This document shows, one piece after another, positions 3,747 through 43,663 of a DNA stretch of 64,000 nt (its first letter is position 1; each line of letters begins with the position of its first letter). This stretch comes from Bacteroidota bacterium. Lineage in GTDB: Bacteria > Bacteroidota > Bacteroidia > Bacteroidales > Prolixibacteraceae. The stretch is taken from the NCBI GenBank assembly GCA_030698405.1, contig JAUYMU010000128.1:1-64000 (forward strand), in the 5' to 3' direction. Below the pieces are notes generated by a model. That model was given only the letters and a program-made list of their open reading frames with translations, ran no database searches and was not told the origin of the DNA. The translations under genes and the position numbers were made by a program.

Positions 3747-4050
3747 CCAATTTATTTCACCAACCCCTCCTTCACTGCCCAGCCAACCAGTTGCTGTGTA
3801 TTGTTAAAACCGGTTTTTCGCAACATGTTCCGGCGGTGTGTTTGCACGGTACTCTTTGTAATTTCCAGTTTTTGCCCTATCATTTCGCTGGTAAACCCTT
3901 TTGCCACCAGGTCCAATACCTTTAATTCCGATTTGCTTATAACTGTTGCCTTTATTGTAATCATCTCTATAAGGGAATAACAGATGTTTTAATCTTCAAT
4001 AAAGTTAAGGCAGAATCACCCTTCAAAAAATACCTACTAATGAGTATTTT
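3747..4050. repeat. Direct repeat copy A (LuxR-type HTH gene plus upstream region)
   Basis: 304 bp nearly identical, without indels, to 6983-7286 in the same orientation. It spans the short luxR-type coding region and about 85 bp upstream of its start. The match ends abruptly at 4050/7286, where copy A runs into unrelated sequence. A recombination between the copies would delete the two surface-protein genes between them (4150-6947). Confidence 0.9.
3752..3964 (-). CDS. Stand-alone LuxR/GerE-type HTH regulator (copy A)
   Basis: 70 residues, consisting almost only of a LuxR C-terminal (GerE) four-helix DNA-binding domain. It has S-x-x-E-L-K-V-L-D-L-V-A-K-G at the first helix, G-x-K-L-E-I-T-K-S-T-V-Q-T-H at the recognition helix and R-R-N-M-L-R-K-T-G. 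No receiver, PAS or ligand-binding domain is present and there is no room for one upstream. It is nearly identical to the protein at 6988-7206, and the upstream DNA is duplicated too. It follows the DUF5723-like gene by 185 nt. It could bind DNA as a dimer and act on its own or its copy's promoter; that is inference. The start at 3964 is an ATG; copy B starts at an equivalent position with two extra residues. Confidence 0.8.
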   Translation of the reverse strand: MITIKATVISKSELKVLDLVAKGFTSEMIGQKLEITKSTVQTHRRNMLRKTGFNNTQQLVGWAVKEGLVK

Positions 4051-4149
4051 CATTGAGTGTACTGAGGCGCAATAAGGTGAGGATTGCTAATCGTCAGGAA
4101 TATATTCTAAATGCAAAAGCGAAATCTCAGGATTGAAGTTTCTCTTTTT

Positions 4150-5472
4150 TTATTGCTGCACCTGATCTTCAGTTACATTGGGTTTTTGTTTTATCCCAAA
4201 TGCCAGATTAATTCCAAAAGCCAGAGATGCCAGTTGTGCTTTTTCATAATTTATCAATTGGTTGAGATTATCGGTAACCACAAATAAATCCGATCCGGGT
4301 AGAATGCGTAATCTGATTCCTAGTCCTAGATTGTGATAGGAATAAGCATTGGTGTAACTTACAGATGTTGAAAGCTTTCGCCCCATATAACCATTCATTG
4401 AAAGGGTGACCGATGCCTTGTTGTCAATTTCGTACATTACATTCTTTACAAGTAATCCGGTATTCCATTTGGGTGAGAGTTTATAGTTTATTCCCAAATA
4501 GATTTTTGAAGGTATCTTTATTTTTACCGATTGATTTTTAATTATTTTATATGTTTCATTTATTAGTGAAGACCGATAGCCGTTCTCGCTCCATCTGGAA
4601 GTGCCAATATCCAACAAACTTGCTGACACAGAGAATCTTTTGCTCAATTCATAATTGACGCCTAAATCAAAGGCAAAACCAGCATTTTGGAATAGACTTG
4701 AGATTCCAAGATCATCCAGCCAATTTTCGGGCAGAATATCTTCATCCGGATTTAGTTCTCCATTCCCATCAATTGCCTGTGGATTTATGGGAACGGGTAA
4801 GCCAATTTGAGCTTCCCCGGAATATTCGGTTTCAAAATCGTATTGCCCGGTTTGCGACACTTTTAGACTTAGTTTGTCTGATCGAATTCCGCCCAGAGCA
4901 CCAATCAGCTTTGGTGAAATCCCGATGGTAAGTTTTTTTTCGAATACCCTGCTGTAGGTAATTGCAACCTGCGAAAAACTATTAAATACAATGTTCGCTC
5001 CTTCAATATTTAAAGGTAATCTGTCAGCGATTTTTTCGTAATCGTCCAATAAATACACAAAATTGGAAGGAGCCTGCAATTCCAGAAAGCTCCGGACACT
5101 CGCCGAAATAGAAAAATACCCTTTGTCTTTCAACCTGAAACCCATTGCAAACAAGTTGGTTCTGGTTTCGAGGTTGGTTTGGTTGAAATCGCCGATTGAT
5201 TTAATAAACTCATCTGGATTGTAGTTTTCTGTTCCAAGATTATCGGTAAAGTCCTTGAATTGATTGTAATTAAACCCTGAATTATAGATGTCAATTTGGT
5301 TACCTCCGATTCCCGGAAGATTCAGGAAGAATTTGACATTTGGGAACAACGCCGGATTGAAATTAAGCTGTTGCGGAAGACGATCCATAAAATACATTGT
5401 ATTTTGTGAATACGTATAAATCGTTACTCCATTCAGTAAAAACGCCAGGATTAATAAGGATAATTTTTTCAT
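4150..5472 (-). CDS. DUF5723-like outer-membrane beta-barrel protein
   Basis: 440 residues with a signal peptide (~1-22, ending Y-S-Q). The mature protein opens with the phrase F-M-D-R-L-P-Q-Q-L-N-F-N-P-A, typical of the Bacteroidota DUF5723 family, whose members are predicted beta-barrels distantly like PorV/FadL. Alternating hydrophobic strands continue to the end, with the last strand region around residues 415-430. The gene starts 14 nt downstream of the T9SS cargo gene (5487-6947) and is probably co-transcribed with it. The pair sits between the two copies of the LuxR-type cassette. No enzymatic residues are expected; a role in surface display or export of the neighbouring cargo is only an inference from position. 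Confidence 0.75.
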   Translation of the reverse strand: MKKLSLLILAFLLNGVTIYTYSQNTMYFMDRLPQQLNFNPALFPNVKFFLNLPGIGGNQIDIYNSGFNYNQFKDFTDNLGTENYNPDEFIKSIGDFNQTNLETRTNLFAMGFRLKDKGYFSISASVRSFLELQAPSNFVYLLDDYEKIADRLPLNIEGANIVFNSFSQVAITYSRVFEKKLTIGISPKLIGALGGIRSDKLSLKVSQTGQYDFETEYSGEAQIGLPVPINPQAIDGNGELNPDEDILPENWLDDLGISSLFQNAGFAFDLGVNYELSKRFSVSASLLDIGTSRWSENGYRSSLINETYKIIKNQSVKIKIPSKIYLGINYKLSPKWNTGLLVKNVMYEIDNKASVTLSMNGYMGRKLSTSVSYTNAYSYHNLGLGIRLRILPGSDLFVVTDNLNQLINYEKAQLASLAFGINLAFGIKQKPNVTEDQVQQ

Positions 5473-5486
5473 ATTGGTTGATTTTA

Positions 5487-6947
5487 TTATTCCTTCACCA
5501 ATTTTCCACTCTGCACCATACCATCCACATTCAGTTTGTACAAATACAAGCCGCTCTGGAATCCTTCCATATTTACTTTTTCATTGCTACCAATTGCTTT
5601 TGATATGAGTTTGCGGCCTTGCAGGTCGAATAACTCAAAAGTGAATTGGGAATAGGAATCTGGGAGATTGAATGAGACGAATTCAGAAACCGGATTTGGA
5701 TACACTCTTGATAGTTCGGTATCCAATTGATTTACTGAGGTGACATTTATCGGTGAATAAACAATTGCCGCTTTAAAATTCAATATCCATTGCTTTGTAT
5801 AAATATTCCATTCATACCCGCGCATTTCTGTGATCATGTGTCTGAAAAAATTATTAAAATACTCATCATCACCCCAGGGTAAAATAAGATCATTGAATGA
5901 ATACCTGTTGTCGTAGGTATTCTCCGATTTATTAATATCCGTCCACTGGTTGGTCTGTCCATCCCGATTATAATAACTAATTTGTTGTGCGATGTTCCCA
6001 AAATCGTCATACAAATACGTATTTTTATCACCCTCAATCCACGATCCAGTCCACTTACTTGAATAGATTTGCTGTGTTAATTGTCCCTTGTCATCGTAAG
6101 TATATTCACTTTTTGAAGAATCATACCATTGATCTAATCCATTCAATGAAGTTCCCAGCACAATAGTGTTGTTCCCTTTTGAATCATAAGTATACTCCGT
6201 TTTATTGTTTTGAATCCATTGGTTGGTCGTTTGATTCCAATATGATGAAAAAGATTGACTCATTTTGCCGTTATCATTGTATTTATATTCATACTTATCT
6301 TTGCCGACCAATTTGTTGGTAGTTTCGTCTAAACTTGAGTTGATTTCCTGAATTAAATTCCCATTCGCATCATAGGCGTAATCATTTTTCGAATCTATAA
6401 CAAACGTGTTGGTATTTCCGTTCCATCTATAATCCAAATGCTGTGTCAAATTCCCATTGGCATCATAGCTATAAATAGACTTTTCGTCTGCAAGAAATTG
6501 ATTGATTTCGTTCAAGTTATATTCAATTTGCTGAGTCATATTTCCTTTGGCATCGTAGGTAGATTCATATTTAGAATCAAGAATCCATTGGCTGGAAGCT
6601 CCATTCCATTCAGAGTAACGTTCAAGAGTCACATTCCATTTATCATCGTATGTGAACTCTACTTTTTCATCAATCACCCACTGGTTGGTAAATTCATCCC
6701 ATTCCTGGCTTGTATAGCTATCCAATCTTTGTTTAATCGCCTGGGCAGATTTCAGAGAATTTGCCTGTTTTTGAAAACTCATTTTTCGCTGGAACGGGCT
6801 GTGCTCTGTGCTCTTTTCAGTTCTTTCAAGCCTGTTTTTTAAAAAGCTACCAGTAAGCTTTCTACTTTTGTTGTGCGCTGGTTCCAGCGCATAAATACTT
6901 GTTGTTAACAAAAACAACGCTGCTAATAATGTAAATTTTGCTTTCAT
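5487..6947 (-). CDS. T9SS-sorted secreted protein with tandem Tyr-Asp (YD-like) repeats
   Basis: 486 residues. A signal peptide (~1-20) is followed by a short propeptide-like charged region. Residues ~85-370 hold about seven imperfect ~40-residue repeats with the core Y-x-Y-D-x-K/N-G-N-x-T-Q-Q and a W-N-x-x-x-x-x-W segment, resembling the repeats of DUF3836/YD-type surface proteins. The last ~75 residues are a T9SS type A sorting domain: V-Y-P-N-P-V near its start, then L-F-D-L-Q-G-R-K and G-L-Y-L-Y-K-L. It should therefore cross the outer membrane by the Por system and be anchored or released. It is 40 nt downstream of LuxR copy B and 14 nt upstream of the DUF5723-like gene, so the three may form one transcript. 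Ligand unknown. Confidence 0.85.
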   Translation of the reverse strand: MKAKFTLLAALFLLTTSIYALEPAHNKSRKLTGSFLKNRLERTEKSTEHSPFQRKMSFQKQANSLKSAQAIKQRLDSYTSQEWDEFTNQWVIDEKVEFTYDDKWNVTLERYSEWNGASSQWILDSKYESTYDAKGNMTQQIEYNLNEINQFLADEKSIYSYDANGNLTQHLDYRWNGNTNTFVIDSKNDYAYDANGNLIQEINSSLDETTNKLVGKDKYEYKYNDNGKMSQSFSSYWNQTTNQWIQNNKTEYTYDSKGNNTIVLGTSLNGLDQWYDSSKSEYTYDDKGQLTQQIYSSKWTGSWIEGDKNTYLYDDFGNIAQQISYYNRDGQTNQWTDINKSENTYDNRYSFNDLILPWGDDEYFNNFFRHMITEMRGYEWNIYTKQWILNFKAAIVYSPINVTSVNQLDTELSRVYPNPVSEFVSFNLPDSYSQFTFELFDLQGRKLISKAIGSNEKVNMEGFQSGLYLYKLNVDGMVQSGKLVKE

Positions 6948-36653: not shown

Positions 36654-37730
36654 ATGAGCAAATCTGAATTAATTAAAAAACTTCTGCCGGGATTTATCCC
36701 ACTCTTCGTTTTTATCGCCGTTGACGGGATTTGGGGAACCCGTGCCGGTTTGGTTGCAGCCCTTGTTATCGGGGTTGCCGAAATGGTATGGATCTGGGCC
36801 AAAGAAAAACGCTTCGACCGTTTTGTATTGGTTGATACCGGTTTGCTTATGGCGCTCGGTTCAGTATCTATTTTGCTCGACAACGACCTCTTTTTTAAAC
36901 TGAAACCGGGTCTTATTGAATTGATTCTTTGCGCAGTGCTTGGTGTATCCGCCTTCTCAAAATTAAATATCATCGGGCTGATGACGAAGCGATACATGAA
37001 AGACATGGAAATGAACGAACAGCAGGTTGCACAGTTCCGAAAAACCATGCAACTGATGTTTTTTGTTTTTCTGTTTCATACCGCACTCGTATTTTATGCT
37101 GCATTTTATCTTTCCAACGAAGCCTGGGCATTTATCAGCGGAGGTTTGTTTTATATCTTGTTTGCAGTGGTTTTCGGATACGAATTCGTCAAACAGAAAC
37201 TGAAATTACGCAAACAAATGGTAATTCCTGAAGAGGAAGAATGGCTTCCACTGGTGAACGAACAAGGGGGAATCATCGGCAAAGCGCCCCGTTCGGCTTG
37301 TCACCGGGGCGAAAAACTGCTGCATCCTGTCGTTCATCTACACGTTTTTAACAACCAAAAACATGTTTATTTGCAGAAACGACCGCTGAGCAAACTGGTT
37401 CAGCCCGGCAAATGGGACACTGCTGTTGGCGGACATATCTCGGTTGGCGAAACGCTTGAAACAGCACTGAAACGCGAAGCTTTCGAAGAAATCGGATTAA
37501 AACAGTTCTCTGCCAAACTTGTAAAAACTTACCGTTGGGAAAGCGAGCTGGAATCGGAACTGGTTTATGTATTTACCACCCACGATTTTAAATCGATTCA
37601 TTTACACTCCGAAGAAGTGGTGGAAGGGAGGTTCTGGACGATCAAACAAATTGATTCAAACATTGGCAAAGGCATTTTTACTCCCAATTTCGAACATGAA
37701 TATCAGTTGCTGAAGAAGGAAATATTTTAA
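36654..37730 (+). CDS. Fusion of a septation-protein-A-like membrane domain and a Nudix hydrolase
   Basis: 358 residues. Residues 1-180 contain five or six hydrophobic helices with P-L-F-V-F-I-A-V-D and F-A-V-V-F-G-Y-E-F, resembling the IspA/YciB (septation protein A) membrane family. Residues ~195-358 are a Nudix domain: box at 260-282 G-G-H-I-S-V-G-E with R-E-A-F-E-E-I-G, and L-V-N-E-Q-G-G-I-I-G-K and R-P-L-S-K-L-V as in YfcD/IDI-type Nudix proteins. The two parts are joined by a Lys-rich linker. It could act on a nucleotide or isoprenoid diphosphate at the inner membrane, but the substrate is unknown. The start abuts a terminator T-run. Confidence 0.82.
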   Translation: MSKSELIKKLLPGFIPLFVFIAVDGIWGTRAGLVAALVIGVAEMVWIWAKEKRFDRFVLVDTGLLMALGSVSILLDNDLFFKLKPGLIELILCAVLGVSAFSKLNIIGLMTKRYMKDMEMNEQQVAQFRKTMQLMFFVFLFHTALVFYAAFYLSNEAWAFISGGLFYILFAVVFGYEFVKQKLKLRKQMVIPEEEEWLPLVNEQGGIIGKAPRSACHRGEKLLHPVVHLHVFNNQKHVYLQKRPLSKLVQPGKWDTAVGGHISVGETLETALKREAFEEIGLKQFSAKLVKTYRWESELESELVYVFTTHDFKSIHLHSEEVVEGRFWTIKQIDSNIGKGIFTPNFEHEYQLLKKEIF

Positions 37731-37834
37731 ATACTGTGAGGGTTGACGTATTTAAGTCCTTTTATTCCTTTAAAGTCCTTATCGTTGTTAGAAACAAGTG
37801 TGTAACCATGGGCCAGTGCAGTTGCGGCAATATC
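37727..37834 (-). pseudogene. Truncated PIN (VapC-like) toxin remnant
   Basis: The minus-strand frame reads D-I-A-A-T-A-L-A-H-G-Y-T-L-V-S-N-N-D-K-D-F and G-L-K-Y-V-N-P-H, the C-terminal third of a PIN toxin. The catalytic N-terminal half is absent and there is no start. Its stop overlaps the 3' end of the Nudix fusion gene. The antitoxin-like gene at 37837-38052 is directly upstream in the right place, so a toxin-antitoxin pair has lost its toxin by deletion. Confidence 0.7.
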
Positions 37835-37836
37835 GA

Positions 37837-38052
37837 TTAAATACCGTTCCATTCGCTGCGTATTTGTTTGATATGGTCGTTTAATTGTTGCCCATCTTCC
37901 TTGCTGATAGAGCCTTTGTATTTATCGGACAATTTGGTTTTGTCAGGTTCAAAGTTTTCCTTTAAAACCTTAATCAGATGCAGTTCCTCCAATTCGCGCA
38001 AAAGCCCGGCGGCTTTCTGGTTGGTCAGTTGTATTATCATAGTATGTTTCAT
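37837..38052 (-). CDS. Probable orphan antitoxin-like small protein
   Basis: 71 residues. The N-terminal strand M-I-I-Q-L-T-N and helix A-A-G-L-L-R-E-L-E-E-L-H-L-I-K-V-L are followed by an acidic, Lys-rich tail. It is next to a decayed PIN toxin tail in the order expected for an antitoxin-toxin module. Similar small proteins in Bacteroidota precede PIN genes. It may survive as an orphan regulator or antitoxin. No clear RHH fold was recognised. Confidence 0.6.
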   Translation of the reverse strand: MKHTMIIQLTNQKAAGLLRELEELHLIKVLKENFEPDKTKLSDKYKGSISKEDGQQLNDHIKQIRSEWNGI

Positions 38053-38079: not shown

Positions 38080-39594
38080 CTAATTGGCACGTATTTTTTC
38101 TTTTGGTTTCTGGCGAATAGCATTTGAGAGCATTTGGAGGAAACCATATCCTTGTTGGGAAAGGCCCGAAACCAACTTTTTTACTTTAGTTGCAGCCTGA
38201 TTTTTTGAGTCGATTTTTGACGCGTGGGTTAATAATTCGGTGAAATTTGGCGTAGAAATTATAACGTCAGCCTGATGTTTCAGTAATTCATCTTCGGGAC
38301 AAAAAGCGACGCCAATTCCGGCCTCATTAATCATGCAAAGATCATTCAAACTGTCGCCGATGGCGATGCAGTTCTCCTTTTTTATTTTGTATTTGTTTAA
38401 AATGTCCGTCATTGCATTTGTCTTGCACAACGGGTGTTTGCATATACTGTCGCGACTGCTAAAGAAAAACGATGGAATTTTCACTTCACCGGTACAAACA
38501 CTTTTAGAGAATTCCAGTTCATTTGAGAGCGAGAAATCCATCTCCAATTTGGTTTTTATGTGTTCGGTGATACAATCGTAACTGTCGGAAATAATCCCAA
38601 CAACATAGCCCCGTTTTTTAAGCTCCGTAACGACCTGCTGCGTGTTCTCTACGATGGGTATGTTATCCGCAACTGAAATCAGATCTGCCAACGATTTTCC
38701 TTTCAGAAGTTTGGCTACCTGTTTGGTCATGCAAATCCCGTTTGTTTCCGATGAGCGGATGTCCGTCAGTTTATCCATGAATCCAAATGAATTTGCGCAG
38801 GCATCAATAAACCTTCCCCGAAGAAGCGTATTGTCCATGTCGAAGATTACCAGTTTGTTATACTTCAGGAGGTGGTTTTTTAATGCGTATTCTATTTGCG
38901 ACGGGATATTTTTACTCGTACCAGGGTCGTCTAAAAGGTATGACGGTTTTTTAGTTGAAGTTCCCCTCGAAATAATGGCTTGAGATACCTCTTTGCTCAT
39001 TTTGCCGAGCTCTTGCCACGGTTTGCTATTGTTTTCGATGTAGCCGATTTCAACATCCACAATCCGTACTTTCATCAAGTGCATATCTATCAGGATGCCA
39101 ACGTCAACGCCATAGTCATCCCGGAAATCCAGTCGTTTCAAAAGTGATTTTTTTCCGGCAATCATTCCGCTTAGCGGTTGGCTGTATCGCAGTAGTTCAG
39201 GGTAGAAAATACTCAGGAGCGGTTTTGCAACCAATTCGGTAACCCTGCCGGCATTTCGGCTGAATGATGATTTTACAAAATCGGCTTCTCCGCAGATGAT
39301 CGGATCAGAAAGTGATTTTATGGTATTGGGAGGATACGGATCAATGTCTCCATCAAGAAAGACAACAATTTCGTTGGCGGCATAAAGTAACCCGTCTTTC
39401 ATCGAAGTGCCTTTCCCAAGTTTTGTGCTGGTGATCACTTTTGCACCGTTTTCACGTGCGATAGGGACAGTTTGGTCGATTGATTTGTCATCAACAACAA
39501 TTACTTCGCTCACATTTGGCTGACTTTTGGCAAAGTTTACTACCGCCGCGATATGAGCTTCTTCGTTCAATGTAGGTATGATGATAGAGATCAT
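38080..39594 (-). CDS. Family-2 glycosyltransferase fused to HAD phosphatase (glucosyl-3-phosphoglycerate synthase/phosphatase-like)
   Basis: 504 residues, two enzymes in one chain. Residues 1-~215 are a GT-A fold: I-I-P-T-L-N-E-E, V-V-D-D-K-S, and metal-binding D-G-D at 81-83. D-Y-G-V-D-V-G-I-L-I-D and the late R-I-V-D-V-E-I-G resemble GpgS (GT81). Residues ~245-475 are a HAD-IB phosphatase: nucleophile Asp252 and Asp254 in F-D-M-D-N-T-L, S-D-S near 336-338, and G-D-S-L-N-D at 413-418. This order would make glucosyl-3-phosphoglycerate and dephosphorylate it to glucosylglycerate, a compatible solute. The gene is 37 nt downstream of a CPA2 antiporter, supporting osmoadaptation. Alternatively it makes another phospho-glycoside. 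Confidence 0.72.
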   Translation of the reverse strand: MISIIIPTLNEEAHIAAVVNFAKSQPNVSEVIVVDDKSIDQTVPIARENGAKVITSTKLGKGTSMKDGLLYAANEIVVFLDGDIDPYPPNTIKSLSDPIICGEADFVKSSFSRNAGRVTELVAKPLLSIFYPELLRYSQPLSGMIAGKKSLLKRLDFRDDYGVDVGILIDMHLMKVRIVDVEIGYIENNSKPWQELGKMSKEVSQAIISRGTSTKKPSYLLDDPGTSKNIPSQIEYALKNHLLKYNKLVIFDMDNTLLRGRFIDACANSFGFMDKLTDIRSSETNGICMTKQVAKLLKGKSLADLISVADNIPIVENTQQVVTELKKRGYVVGIISDSYDCITEHIKTKLEMDFSLSNELEFSKSVCTGEVKIPSFFFSSRDSICKHPLCKTNAMTDILNKYKIKKENCIAIGDSLNDLCMINEAGIGVAFCPEDELLKHQADVIISTPNFTELLTHASKIDSKNQAATKVKKLVSGLSQQGYGFLQMLSNAIRQKPKEKIRAN

Positions 39595-39631
39595 GGCATT
39601 GGATTTTGTTTGTTAACATTAACTAGGTTTG

Positions 39632-41902
39632 TTATTCCCGCAGTATCAGTATTGATGATGCCACGCTGAGCCAACTGCTGCGTGATTCAACGAGCATTTT
39701 CCACCCATCGGCAGATACAATCATTAACTGAAATTTTTGGATAAATGTTTCATCAATCACGTTTACCTGATCAAGGGTAATATGGTTGGGCGCTTGATGT
39801 TCAATTGCCCTGATGGCTTCTTTTATTTCAGAGAGGTTTTTGGTTAGCCCTTTCGGATCGGCCACTGTAATTTGTGCTTCTGAATTTTTAATTAAACGTT
39901 GGAGGTATTTAATCAGAAAACCATCGTTCCCGGAATATATAGGAGCAATAATTTGGTCCCAGTCTCTGGAATTTTTGTCTATCAAAATTCCGACCGGGAC
40001 TTTGCTGCCTGAAAGTATGTTTTGTGTGCGGTCGTCGAAGGGAGAGTTGCTAAACAGTTTTTCTTTTCCTGAAACTTTATGGATAAGGCGGTCAGGGTTA
40101 ATGATGCTGGTGGTATATCCCAGTATTCTGCCCAAAAGAGTTCCCTCAAAAATCGAATGCCCGATACCAATTAACAGAAGGTCAAAATCACCTTTGTTGG
40201 TTATTTCTGCAATGTCAGCGTCAATGTCATCGGTGGCTTTAAAAAGGGTCGTAATTTTCTGGTTCAGTATTTTTGATTCCTGAATGACAGGCGAAAAACT
40301 CTCGTTTTCATATTCTTCCAGGTTATAATGGTGCAGCACGCTGTTCGGGCATAAGTGCAGCGCAGTAACCGTAGCATTTTCAGTTTGCTTTTTTACTAAA
40401 CGATTGGCCAGATGTAGCAAAGATTTACCCATTTCAGGATTACCAAAAGATAAAATAATCTTATATTTTATGAGTTGGTTCACCTGTTCGGAGATCGCGT
40501 GTGGCTTTTTCCTGAATATTCGATTAATTAAGTCCAGAGCCGGAGCTGTCATGAACGTAGTGACCAAAGCCATAATGACCATCATCGAAAAAATTTCAGG
40601 AGAGAGGATACCAAGGTCATACCCAATGTTAAGTACCACCAGTTCCATCAGTCCCCGGGTATTCATCAGCGCACCGATGGTAAGGCTGTCGCGCCAGTTT
40701 TGCCCCACAAATTTGGCTGCAAGAGCGCTTCCGATGAATTTACCGGTTATTGCGACCAGGATGATCAGTCCGGTTATTTTCCAGAGATAAGGGTCGTTGA
40801 GCAATCCAATTTCAGTGCGCAGCCCCGTGAAGACAAAAAACAATGGGAGTAGGAGCACAAGAGCTACATCTTCAACCTTTTCAATAAATATATTTCTGAA
40901 CTTGGTGCTTTCGGGCATTATGACGCCAGCCATAAATGCGCCAAACAACGCATGGATGCCGATAACTTCGGTTGTGTAAGATGAAACGATCAGTGTCAGG
41001 AAGAAGATAGCGACAATTTGCTTGCTCATCGTTTCGCGCGAGGGATATAAATCGCCAACCCGTTTCAAAAATGGTTTGACCAATTTGAGCATCAGGAAAA
41101 CATAGCCAATAGCAATGGCAATGGTGTACAGTGAACTCACAAACGAACCTGCTTTTGATATGGCGATTACTGCGGCAAGCAAACACCAGGCGCTGATGTC
41201 GTCGGCTGCGGCACAGGTAATAACAATGGCTCCCAACCGTGTTTTATGAATTCCTCTTTCATGCACGATGCGAGCCAGTACAGGGAAAGCTGTTATGCTC
41301 ATTGCAATGCCGAGGAATAAGCCAAACGATAGAAATTGTACGCCTGAAGGGGCAAAAGTTTGATAGATAAAATACGCCAAACCCATGCCAAGCGCAAATG
41401 GGAAAATAATGCTTGCATGACTGATGACGACTGCGTCATGAGCTTTGTTTTTTAGTGTCTTCAAATCGAGTTCCATCCCAACCATAAACATAAACAGTAT
41501 TAGCCCAATCTGGCTTAAAAACTGGAGGTTGCCCATTGAGTGGTCAGGAAATAATGTGTTGAAAAATTCGGGGAAATACATGCCAAGGAGCGAGGGCCCC
41601 AGCACAATGCCTGCAATAATCTCACCTATTACGGTGGGTTGGCCTATTTTTTTACATGCCCATCCAAGTATGCGGGCGGTAATTATTATAGTTATTATTT
41701 GAGCCAGGAGTATGGCCAACGGGTGTGTCAGGTTATGTAAAAAAGAGTTTACAAACTCCAGCCACTGACTTTCACCTACTTCGGGCATGTGTACGTGCCT
41801 TCCAAATTCCAGCGCTTTTCCTTTTTGTGCAATCCAATGGATAAGCCACGAAAAACTGCCAATTACGCAGATGTAGAAAAAGACGTTTCTAAATTTCTTC
41901 AT
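39632..41902 (-). CDS. CPA2-family cation:proton antiporter with C-terminal stress-protein-like domain
   Basis: 756 residues. After an N-terminal hydrophobic helix (~10-25), residues ~60-450 form about 12 transmembrane helices. Conserved stretches are V-I-G-E-I-I-A-G-I-V-L-G-P-S-L-L-G, and A-A-D-D-I-S-A-W, the ion-binding D-D pair of the antiporter. L-M-N-T-R-G-L-M-E-L-V is also typical. Residues ~470-756 have the nucleotide-binding outline of universal stress-type domains, in two weak halves (for example L-L-L-I-G-I-G-H-S). These regulate K+/Na+:H+ exchange in relatives. Next downstream after 37 nt is the glycosyltransferase-phosphatase gene, so an osmotic-stress operon is likely. Confidence 0.85.
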   Translation of the reverse strand: MKKFRNVFFYICVIGSFSWLIHWIAQKGKALEFGRHVHMPEVGESQWLEFVNSFLHNLTHPLAILLAQIITIIITARILGWACKKIGQPTVIGEIIAGIVLGPSLLGMYFPEFFNTLFPDHSMGNLQFLSQIGLILFMFMVGMELDLKTLKNKAHDAVVISHASIIFPFALGMGLAYFIYQTFAPSGVQFLSFGLFLGIAMSITAFPVLARIVHERGIHKTRLGAIVITCAAADDISAWCLLAAVIAISKAGSFVSSLYTIAIAIGYVFLMLKLVKPFLKRVGDLYPSRETMSKQIVAIFFLTLIVSSYTTEVIGIHALFGAFMAGVIMPESTKFRNIFIEKVEDVALVLLLPLFFVFTGLRTEIGLLNDPYLWKITGLIILVAITGKFIGSALAAKFVGQNWRDSLTIGALMNTRGLMELVVLNIGYDLGILSPEIFSMMVIMALVTTFMTAPALDLINRIFRKKPHAISEQVNQLIKYKIILSFGNPEMGKSLLHLANRLVKKQTENATVTALHLCPNSVLHHYNLEEYENESFSPVIQESKILNQKITTLFKATDDIDADIAEITNKGDFDLLLIGIGHSIFEGTLLGRILGYTTSIINPDRLIHKVSGKEKLFSNSPFDDRTQNILSGSKVPVGILIDKNSRDWDQIIAPIYSGNDGFLIKYLQRLIKNSEAQITVADPKGLTKNLSEIKEAIRAIEHQAPNHITLDQVNVIDETFIQKFQLMIVSADGWKMLVESRSSWLSVASSILILRE

Positions 41903-42189: not shown

Positions 42190-42918
42190 CTACCTGCTTG
42201 TTTTAATTATGAATTCGTCGCGGTAAGTTTCGCCCAGGGTAAGTACCAAAGGCTTTTCTGACTGGAAAAAAATGTTGGTGGTAATCTGATTGTTTGAAAA
42301 ATAGAGTACTTTTCCCAGTGAAATGAGCTCTTTTTTGTTGATACGGCAAAACTGGTCGGGTGGCAAAACCGAAATGAGTTTCTCAAATGTAATGTTCTTC
42401 AATTGAAGGAATGCGCCATTTTCCAGCAGGGCAGTTTTGTCGCGGCTGTCGATTTCGGAGGTGTGTATGTAAACCAACTGGTCGAAAAATAACATGACAT
42501 TTCCTTTGTCGGTATTTAAACGGATGTGTTTCCTTATTTTGCTATCGGAACTTATCCGGTTTATGGCTTTGTTTACCGCTTGCTGAAGTCGTTCGGGTTT
42601 TACCGGTTTTATTACATAGTCGATGGCATCCAGATCGAAAGCGTTGGTCGCATAGTCTTTGTAGGCAGTGGTGAAAATTATCGGTTTATCTTTGAGTATT
42701 TCAGCTATCTGTATGCCACTGATTCCAGGCATTTCAATGTCAAGTATGCACAGATCAAATTCCAGCCCGGGGAATTCTCTCAAAAATATATCCGGATCGT
42801 TAAAAGCCCTAATCACTTCCAGTTCGGGTATCTGTTCACAAAGCAATTTCAGGTACGAAAGCCCCGGCAATTCATCGTCTAGCAGCAAGCATTTTAGCTT
42901 TGTATTCAAGCAGTTCAA
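42190..42918 (-). CDS. LytTR-type response regulator
   Basis: 242 residues. The receiver domain (~8-125) has D-D-E-L-P-G-L, the phospho-acceptor Asp in L-C-I-L-D-I-E-M-P-G-I-S-G and the Lys in Y-V-I-K-P-V-K-P. The C-terminal ~100 residues are a LytTR DNA-binding domain (V-Y-I-H-T-S-E-I and R-I-N-K-K-E-L-I near the end). It starts at a TTG (42918), because no ATG or GTG is available in frame, and overlaps the kinase gene by 47 nt, so the two are co-translated. The pair forms a LytS/LytR-like system; LytTR regulators often govern surface and stress genes. Confidence 0.9.
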   Translation of the reverse strand: MNCLNTKLKCLLLDDELPGLSYLKLLCEQIPELEVIRAFNDPDIFLREFPGLEFDLCILDIEMPGISGIQIAEILKDKPIIFTTAYKDYATNAFDLDAIDYVIKPVKPERLQQAVNKAINRISSDSKIRKHIRLNTDKGNVMLFFDQLVYIHTSEIDSRDKTALLENGAFLQLKNITFEKLISVLPPDQFCRINKKELISLGKVLYFSNNQITTNIFFQSEKPLVLTLGETYRDEFIIKTSR

Positions 42919-43663
42919 TTTTTAAGTGAGCGATATATACGTTGTCTTCAATAAAATGGTCGAACTTGAAATGATCGTTGTAAATGATCTTCAGGCGTTG
43001 TTCGAGCGTTTCGATTCCAAAACCACTTTTTTCTTTCCTGATGGGCGATTTAGCTGATACTTTGTTGGCAACGGTAAGTTTAAAATTGCTATCGTTAAAT
43101 TCGAAGATGACAGAAATAAAAGCACCTCCGCTTTGCAGATCGGCATGTTTGAAGGCATTTTCAATTAAATCAGTAGAAATAAAAGGCGCCAGCAAACGTT
43201 GGTGATACAGCGGCTCATTTTCATTGATCTTTAATTTCACTTTTAAATCGAATAGCGGGCTGAGTTTAATTTTATTGATTTCAATCAAATTGAGGGCAAA
43301 TTCAACTTCCTGCTTTGGAGTGACGAATTTACTGCGGCTGTCGTAAAGTATATAATCCAGCACATTGGATAATTTATCCAGCGCAAAATAGGTTTGGTAG
43401 GCATGTGACTGTACGGAGTTAAGTATGTTCTTGAAAAGGTGTGGATTTAGCCTGGAATCCAGATTTTCGAGTTCTATTTGGTTGTATTTGCTTTCCATTT
43501 CCTGATATTTAAATTCCAGAACTTGATTTTCTTTTGCCGAATTATTTAGCTTGAAGATCAAATAAATGATTGCAGTCAAACATAGAAGAAGTACGAAAAT
43601 GCTTCCCAAAACAAGAAAAGAAGATAGATCAGGTTGAGTTTCCATTGTATTCGTTTTCAACAA
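42872..43663 (-). CDS. LytS-type sensor histidine kinase
   Basis: 263 residues. One N-terminal transmembrane helix (~15-38) is followed by a coiled linker. Then the His_kinase domain has the phospho-His in L-N-P-H-L-F-K-N-I-L (~95). A short HATPase region holds N-A-F-K-H-A (N-box) and G-F-G-I-E-T-L (G-box). A large sensor is absent, so signal sensing is by the membrane helix or linker. The 3' end overlaps the response regulator gene by 47 nt. Upstream of it stands a terminator, so the pair is its own transcription unit. Confidence 0.9.
   Translation of the reverse strand: MLKTNTMETQPDLSSFLVLGSIFVLLLCLTAIIYLIFKLNNSAKENQVLEFKYQEMESKYNQIELENLDSRLNPHLFKNILNSVQSHAYQTYFALDKLSNVLDYILYDSRSKFVTPKQEVEFALNLIEINKIKLSPLFDLKVKLKINENEPLYHQRLLAPFISTDLIENAFKHADLQSGGAFISVIFEFNDSNFKLTVANKVSAKSPIRKEKSGFGIETLEQRLKIIYNDHFKFDHFIEDNVYIAHLKIELLEYKAKMLAARR

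Follow-up and report, generated by a model that had tools for sequence, protein, structure and literature searches.

We analyzed a 64,000-nucleotide stretch of contig JAUYMU010000128.1 from a Bacteroidota bacterium of the family Prolixibacteraceae, here called the window. It carries a gene for a fused glycosyltransferase-phosphatase, P0001, a candidate enzyme of glucosylglycerate synthesis, next to a gene for a cation/proton antiporter, P0002 (Table 1). Both open reading frames (ORFs) are free of internal stops and lie on the minus strand, the antiporter gene upstream and the fusion gene downstream, with a gap of 37 nucleotides (positions 39595 to 39631). An earlier note, made from the sequence alone, had described two genes on one strand at this distance, and its coordinates agree exactly with ours. 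It had also recognized a GpgS-like transferase and a HAD phosphatase in a single polypeptide, with an ion antiporter beside it; the Pfam, NCBIfam, and PDB matches of P0001 confirm the former, and the family match and nearest PDB relative of P0002 confirm the latter. Many other genomes also have the two domains in one open frame, so the fusion is not an assembly artifact. P0001 is the only full-length match within its own genome.

Table 1. Features of the fusion-antiporter locus (positions within the window; aa, amino acids)
Feature	Position	Strand	Details or basis
Fused protein P0001, 504 aa	38080..39594	-	Glycosyltransferase aa 1-213, linker 214-244, HAD-IB 245-458, C-terminal tail 459-504
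Glycosyltransferase domain, aa 1-213	38956..39594	-	PDB match, residue alignment, glycosyltransferase tree
SerB-like HAD-IB phosphatase domain, aa 245-458	38221..38862	-	Catalytic D252, D254, S336, K391, D414, D418
Putative metal site C385-x-H387-x2-C390 + C420, aa 385-420	38335..38442	-	Co-conservation across fusions
C-terminal extension, 46 aa	38083..38220	-	Helix prediction of low confidence; tail comparison
CPA2-like cation/proton antiporter P0002, 756 aa	39632..41902	-	PF00999, TIGR00932, PDB relative
Response regulator (42190-42918) and histidine kinase (42872-43663)	42190..43663	-	Upstream, 287 nt before antiporter

The N-terminal part of P0001 matched the Pfam family PF00535 (GT2; E value, 1.8e-18). 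Among glycosyltransferase models, the NCBIfam GpgS model NF010496 scored best, with 164.4 bits (3.3e-48) against a curated cutoff of 262; the next-best model reached 78.6 bits (5.1e-22), and the AglJ and dolichyl-phosphate hexose transferase models matched more weakly than GpgS. We aligned 39 full-length fusion proteins, omitting loci L060, L073, L074, and L078 for a contig end, a broken frame, or a split and L040 for a contig end, and all 39 matched the GpgS model. The best PDB sequence relative of residues 2 to 210 was GpgS of Mycobacterium tuberculosis (1.5e-26). A structure of P0001 was predicted from an alignment of 24 rows, with a predicted local distance difference test score of 84.1 and a predicted template modeling score of 0.50, at which the position of one domain relative to the other is untrustworthy. 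In a fold search with this predicted model, mycobacterial GpgS occupied the top 36 PDB rows, aligned over about 225 columns at 33 to 38% identity, with a root mean square deviation of 1.5 to 1.9 Å in 32 rows and 3.2 to 3.8 Å in 4.

The substrate-contacting residues of GpgS, together with His258 near the metal, are listed as Glu54, Lys114, Asp134, Asp136, Val186, Thr187, Leu209, Tyr229, Glu232, His258, and Met269 (PMC2581804, partial text). Their counterparts in P0001 are, in the same order, E11, K61, D81, D83, V118, T119, L141, Y161, D164, N188, and M199, and R117 aligns with GpgS R185. Except at the His258 position, the counterparts of the listed residues were kept in 37 to 39 of the 39 fusion rows (K61, D164, and M199 in 39, D83 in 38, D81 and T119 in 37).

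In a tree of 97 glycosyltransferase domains, 40 fusion or split proteins, 3 actinobacterial GpgS-like rows, and 1 archaeal row formed a group with support of 100/99; GpgS was represented by the 3 rows, one of them annotated as GpgS, and MpgS was not included. The fusions occupied one side of a branch supported at 97/95. The group stood apart from 52 other GT2 rows, which were lower-ranking matches of the genome-contig scan described below. Taken as a profile, 24 of these 52 had dolichol monophosphate mannose synthase as their best PDB match (1.2e-36); 19 of the 24 matched the dolichyl-phosphate hexose transferase model, and all 24 also matched GpgS weakly. A protein with a transferase domain inside the GpgS group is encoded in a Methanobrevibacter metagenome-assembled genome (MAG; L080, positions 4006 to 5727); it has 573 aa, and the roughly 325 residues after this domain had no Pfam match at 0.001.

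The C-terminal part of P0001 matched PF00702 (HAD; 7.6e-16). The nearest known family is SerB (TIGR00338), at 130.6 bits, under its cutoff of 144.15, and the other fusion proteins listed in our genus, phylum, and fusion-genome surveys likewise fell below it. The best PDB sequence relative of residues 244 to 457 was the phosphoserine phosphatase 1f5s (1.8e-21), and single-domain phosphoserine phosphatases gave template modeling scores of 0.82 to 0.87, by target length, with the P0001 model. In this predicted structure an all-helical cap sits between motifs I and II, the HAD-IB arrangement.

The HAD parts of the 39 fusions were aligned by MAFFT with 52 SerB rows (45 distinct) and the M. jannaschii enzyme; the SerB rows came from 53 loci, of which L167 gave none and 18 were taken without scoring against the SerB cutoff. 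The catalytic residues Asp11, Asp13, Ser99, Lys144, Asp167, and Asp171 of SerB are kept, the complete set being present in 36 of 39 fusions, P0001 included. The phosphoserine pocket is different. Glu20 and Gly100, found in all 52 SerB rows, occur in none of the fusions, most of which have Arg or Ser at the former place and 31 of which have Asp at the latter. Met43, also present in 52 of 52 SerB rows, is a gap in 39 of 39 fusions, and Phe49 (49 of 52 SerB rows, Tyr in the other 3) is absent from all 39. In SerB, Arg56 binds the carboxylate and Glu20 the amino group; of these two groups, the carboxylate is the one common to phosphoserine and glucosyl-3-phosphoglycerate. The Arg56 position depends on the alignment: the MAFFT row has Ile or Val, with Arg lost in 39 of 39, and a shift by one column restores Arg in 18 of 39, with Gln in P0001 and Lys and others elsewhere.

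A loop of the form C-x(1,2)-H-x2-C directly before the place of the catalytic Lys, and a Cys two residues past the last catalytic Asp, were found in 36 of 39 fusions. Both are missing together in L056, L081, and L083, three rows far apart in the tree. From this joint presence and absence, and in view of the Zn loops of the HAD phosphatases GmhB and HisB-N, we take the residues as a putative metal site, and the pattern suggests that in P0001 the loop and C420 bind a metal, probably in a structural role. The Zn loop of GmhB and HisB-N likewise lies near the catalytic Lys. Their HAD subfamily and ligand spacing differ from those of P0001, and the loops are likely convergent. A C-terminal tail of 41 to 57 aa is seen in the four full-length fusions linked to the antiporter (the window, L033, L034, and L035); among the remaining 35 rows, L056 has an unlike tail of 36 residues and the tails of the other 34 do not exceed 9. 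L056 (positions 1321 to 2781) is a second copy in genome G400, with its glycosyltransferase set intact, a HAD part without the nucleophile, the Lys, and one Asp, and a C-terminal end that looks hydrophobic by eye.

We investigated the distribution of the fusion. At an E value of 1e-30 or lower, matches were found in 8 of 23 genomes of the genus and in 8 of 395 sampled genomes of the phylum, with up to three candidates scored per genome in the latter survey and the window's own genome counted in both. A genome-contig scan with two patterns, both within the transferase and indicating spread, not frequency, gave at least 27 two-domain matches across phyla among the 80 of 456 loci listed, one of them as two ORFs. 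As labeled, these come mostly from Bacteroidota (Bacteroidales, Chitinophagaceae, Emticicia, and Pseudarcicella) and further from Planctomycetes, Bdellovibrionales, Riflebacteria, Burkholderiaceae, and one Paceibacterota MAG. The Paceibacterota-labeled protein is 61% identical to P0001, and MAG labels may mislead for single contigs. At the Pseudarcicella locus L074 the two domains are adjacent, in-frame ORFs separated by a stop; the transferase nests inside the fusions in the tree, so the split seems to have come later. The fused protein is present in several bacterial groups, with a patchy distribution. When viral contigs were scanned with P0001, there were 26 pattern matches but no relative, and in none of the 96 matching plasmid records did one place cover 80% of P0001. 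The whole window gave no Rfam match at the gathering threshold.

The antiporter P0002 matched PF00999 (Na_H_Exchanger; 1.3e-63), and its best PDB relative was the Na+/H+ antiporter 4bwz (7.4e-30), which we take to be NapA of Thermus. As it scored 164.6 bits against TIGR00932 (CPA2) and missed the cutoff of 238.3, we name it CPA2-like. Its membrane domain spans about aa 74 to 454 and has an Asp-Asp pair aligned with that of 4bwz, as in NapA; such a pair marks electrogenic exchange. The C-terminal 292 residues are soluble and show a weak similarity to the universal stress protein family (Usp), at 17.9 bits, below the Pfam cutoff of 24. G010, G015, G004, and G007 have the genes in the same succession as the window (kinase, regulator, antiporter, fusion), and the response regulator/histidine kinase pair could regulate the two genes after it. 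In G024, TrkA and TrkH lie upstream of the fusion. The earlier note had called the gene pair a compact osmoadaptation operon and proposed a search for it in related genomes. In this search, 5 of 9 close relatives, the window counted, had the two genes side by side and the other 4 did not, and about ten inspected loci have neither ion carrier nor Usp nearby. This part of the note's proposal is weaker than the enzymatic one, and such an operon seems plausible in this clade alone.

Domain content, residues, tree placement, conservation, and gene order were established directly, and from them we infer, with a probability of about 0.7, that P0001 combines the synthase and the phosphatase of a sugar-3-phosphoglycerate in one bifunctional enzyme, whose most likely product is glucosylglycerate. 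The N-terminal GT-A domain would act like GpgS and attach a hexose to the 2-OH of 3-phosphoglycerate; the sugar is most likely glucose, donated by UDP- or GDP-glucose. The C-terminal HAD-IB domain would then remove the 3-phosphate to give glucosylglycerate. Since phosphoserine and glucosyl-3-phosphoglycerate are both 3-phosphopropanoates substituted at C2, recruiting a SerB-like phosphatase makes chemical sense; the side of its pocket for the small amino group would have been altered, mostly by Arg or Ser for Glu20 and by a shortened cap, with catalysis retained. The anionic product may serve as a stress solute or counterion, and the adjacent antiporter, perhaps co-transcribed, would adjust the cation side in this clade. 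The earlier note had proposed the same two steps; family, residue, tree, and fold evidence uphold them, the phosphatase is now refined to a SerB-like HAD-IB type, and mannose is still a candidate donor.

Several points weigh against this reading. Both domains of P0001 fall below the curated GpgS and SerB cutoffs, so that neither function is assignable by rule. GpgS His258 is Asn188 in P0001, the position being Asn in 32, His in 6, and Val in 1 of the 39 fusions; His is retained in L055, L075, L076, L077, L082, and L083, the deepest-branching fusions, which come from MAGs labeled Planctomycetes, Bdellovibrionales, Riflebacteria, and Burkholderiaceae and from G235 of the window's phylum. The GpgS motif PLSGE reads PLSGM, and D164 replaces Glu232, keeping an acidic residue, Asp and not Glu. 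The DxD/Thr set of the transferase is altered in the subclade L054, L071, and L072, which perhaps has a changed function, and the catalytic HAD set is incomplete in L054, L056, and L070. The metal site is read from co-conservation. SerB above its cutoff is absent from 28 of 29 fusion genomes, as discussed below. In G009, G018, G019, and G024 the fusion does not have the antiporter as a neighbor, and promoter-like sites numbered 9 against a shuffle mean of 9.9 and terminator-like sites 1 against 4.7.

The donor could be mannose, in which case P0001 would act as a mannosyl-3-phosphoglycerate synthase/phosphatase and yield mannosylglycerate, in analogy to Dehalococcoides MgsD. Mannosylglycerate synthase has Asp192 where GpgS has Glu232 (PMC2581804, partial text), and the Asp of P0001 at this place makes mannose possible. 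MpgS of R. xylanophilus is also among the PDB relatives of P0001 (3.5e-19; fold rank 39), and the split transferase L074 weakly matches MGS_GT, just above the cutoff. However, GpgS models and structures outscore MpgS for both P0001 and L083, in a comparison to which the tree, lacking MpgS, does not contribute, and we consider mannose an unlikely donor.

The neighbors of other copies bear on the physiological role. Na+/H+ exchangers adjoin the fusion in three settings, those of L059 and L061 having no useful BLAST similarity to P0002. CLC channels lie near the fusions of L065 and L075, DUF389 proteins near L036 and L065, and Na/Ca and Na/Pi carriers near L060, and a universal stress protein adjoins the fusion in Chitinophagaceae and relatives. 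Over 27 loci, the ORFs at distance 1 to 2 (n = 94) included Usp 8 times, HisKA 8, Response_reg 7, and Na_H_Exchanger 3; those at distance 3 to 5 (n = 115) included Usp 2 times, Response_reg 4, and HATPase_c 4, and Na_H_Exchanger was not among the 25 of 145 families listed there. For these counts, ORFs of more than 1,100 aa were excluded beforehand and very long or doubtful ones dropped by hand, which kept 94 of 102 near and 115 of 126 farther ORFs; ORF calling was crude in GC-rich loci, and since related loci are not independent, the counts are indications, not statistics. By eye, neither an ion carrier nor Usp was found within three ORFs in L057, L058, L068, L071, L072, L076, L077, L079, L081, and L082. 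In L071 and L072 the fusion stands before an HSP70 gene. Several carriers belong to what are presumably soil or freshwater genera, which argues for a general stress role, and a stress solute is a plausible product.

With the same chemistry, the product might also be no bulk osmolyte but the primer of a polysaccharide or a lipid. Mycobacterial GpgS serves that role, and the presumed soil and freshwater carriers would fit it as well. In mycobacteria, glucosylglycerate primes methylglucose lipopolysaccharide (PMC4555173, partial text). Among near neighbors of the fusion, however, polysaccharide families were not among the 25 of 104 families listed that were common to at least two, whereas stress and ion genes were, and a primer role seems to us doubtful.

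A third possibility is that the HAD domain serves the cell as its phosphoserine phosphatase and that the fusion ties serine synthesis to the transferase's use of 3-phosphoglycerate. SerB is the nearest known family, and its absence above the cutoff from all but one of the 29 fusion genomes, several of which are possibly incomplete MAGs, with a split form in one, speaks for this; within the genus (n = 23), 4 genomes have SerB without the fusion and 8 the fusion without SerB. However, 11 of the 23 have neither, and SerB was over the cutoff in 108 of 395 phylum genomes, none of them among the 8 fusion bearers; as the other 287 lack it, the anticorrelation is weak, and the co-occurrence data are weak evidence either way. 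The loss of Glu20, Met43, Phe49, and Gly100 from every fusion, where the SerB rows have them near universally, disfavors a phosphoserine phosphatase, which we regard as improbable. PF00535 is common to GT2-type enzymes and the AglJ and dolichyl-phosphate hexose transferase models do match weakly, but the pairing of an unrelated HAD domain with a GT2 of the dolichol-phosphate or envelope type is highly improbable given the conserved 3-phosphoglycerate-binding residues and, by eye, no obvious membrane segment in the transferase part, and we reject it on the tree and the dolichol type of the other GT2 rows. The earlier note had named a grouping with dolichol or other GT2 families as the result that would count against its proposal; the fusions grouped with GpgS instead.

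Compared with GpgS (GT81; M. tuberculosis and M. hassiacum), the glucosylglycerate enzyme proposed here shares the GT-A fold, the donor and acceptor residues, and the tree group, but its transferase is shorter, scores below the curated cutoff, has Asn for His258 and Asp for Glu232, and is fused to a phosphatase. The mycobacterial phosphatase GpgP is encoded by a separate gene (PMC4555173, partial text). MgsD of Dehalococcoides is a bifunctional mannosylglycerate synthase/phosphatase with GDP-mannose as donor (PMC8490865, partial text). To judge by domain content, P0001 would resemble it in joining synthase and phosphatase in one polypeptide that uses a sugar nucleotide and 3-phosphoglycerate. 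MgsD has an MpgP-type phosphatase part (HAD-IIB, C2 cap); that of P0001 is HAD-IB, has its cap between motifs I and II, and best matches phosphoserine phosphatase. With SerB (HAD-IB; 1f5s) it shares the fold, cap position, and catalytic residues, but it lacks the phosphoserine-pocket residues, has a shorter cap and an added Cys/His loop, and is fused to a glycosyltransferase. Fused synthase/phosphatases have also been reported for glucosylglycerol (PMC10873239, partial text) and sucrose (PMC9361551, partial text). These are likewise solute-pathway enzymes with both activities in one chain. They use other transferases and give other products.

As an observation apart from these enzymes, a small antitoxin-like ORF (37837 to 38052, minus strand) lies between a NUDIX-like gene and the fusion, followed by a 41-aa ORF (37727 to 37852, minus strand) resembling the end of a PIN-domain protein; judged by eye, the two are probably a decayed VapBC-like pair.

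The fusion was not mentioned in the titles and abstract openings of the literature searched, a coverage with most subscription papers outside it; the SerB-like partner, the putative metal site, and the spread are new here. Known phosphatases of this activity include the HAD-IIB type and the histidine-phosphatase type. We give about even odds to the wider proposal that the fusions are single-chain glucosylglycerate synthases of several phyla in which a SerB-like HAD-IB enzyme, stabilized by a Cys-His-Cys...Cys metal site of its own, was taken into service as glucosyl-3-phosphoglycerate phosphatase, with an origin separate from these two types, and that the enzyme is coupled here to a Na+/H+ antiporter, possibly physically via the clade-specific C-terminal helix. 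Current family models do not confidently name the fusion proteins, and the window copy fails both cutoffs; if the proposal is true, the residue and metal-site signature could be used for annotation. It would also mean that glucosylglycerate can be made by a one-gene route, add a further phosphatase class to this pathway, and provide a testable stress-solute function for Bacteroidota, Planctomycetes, and others.

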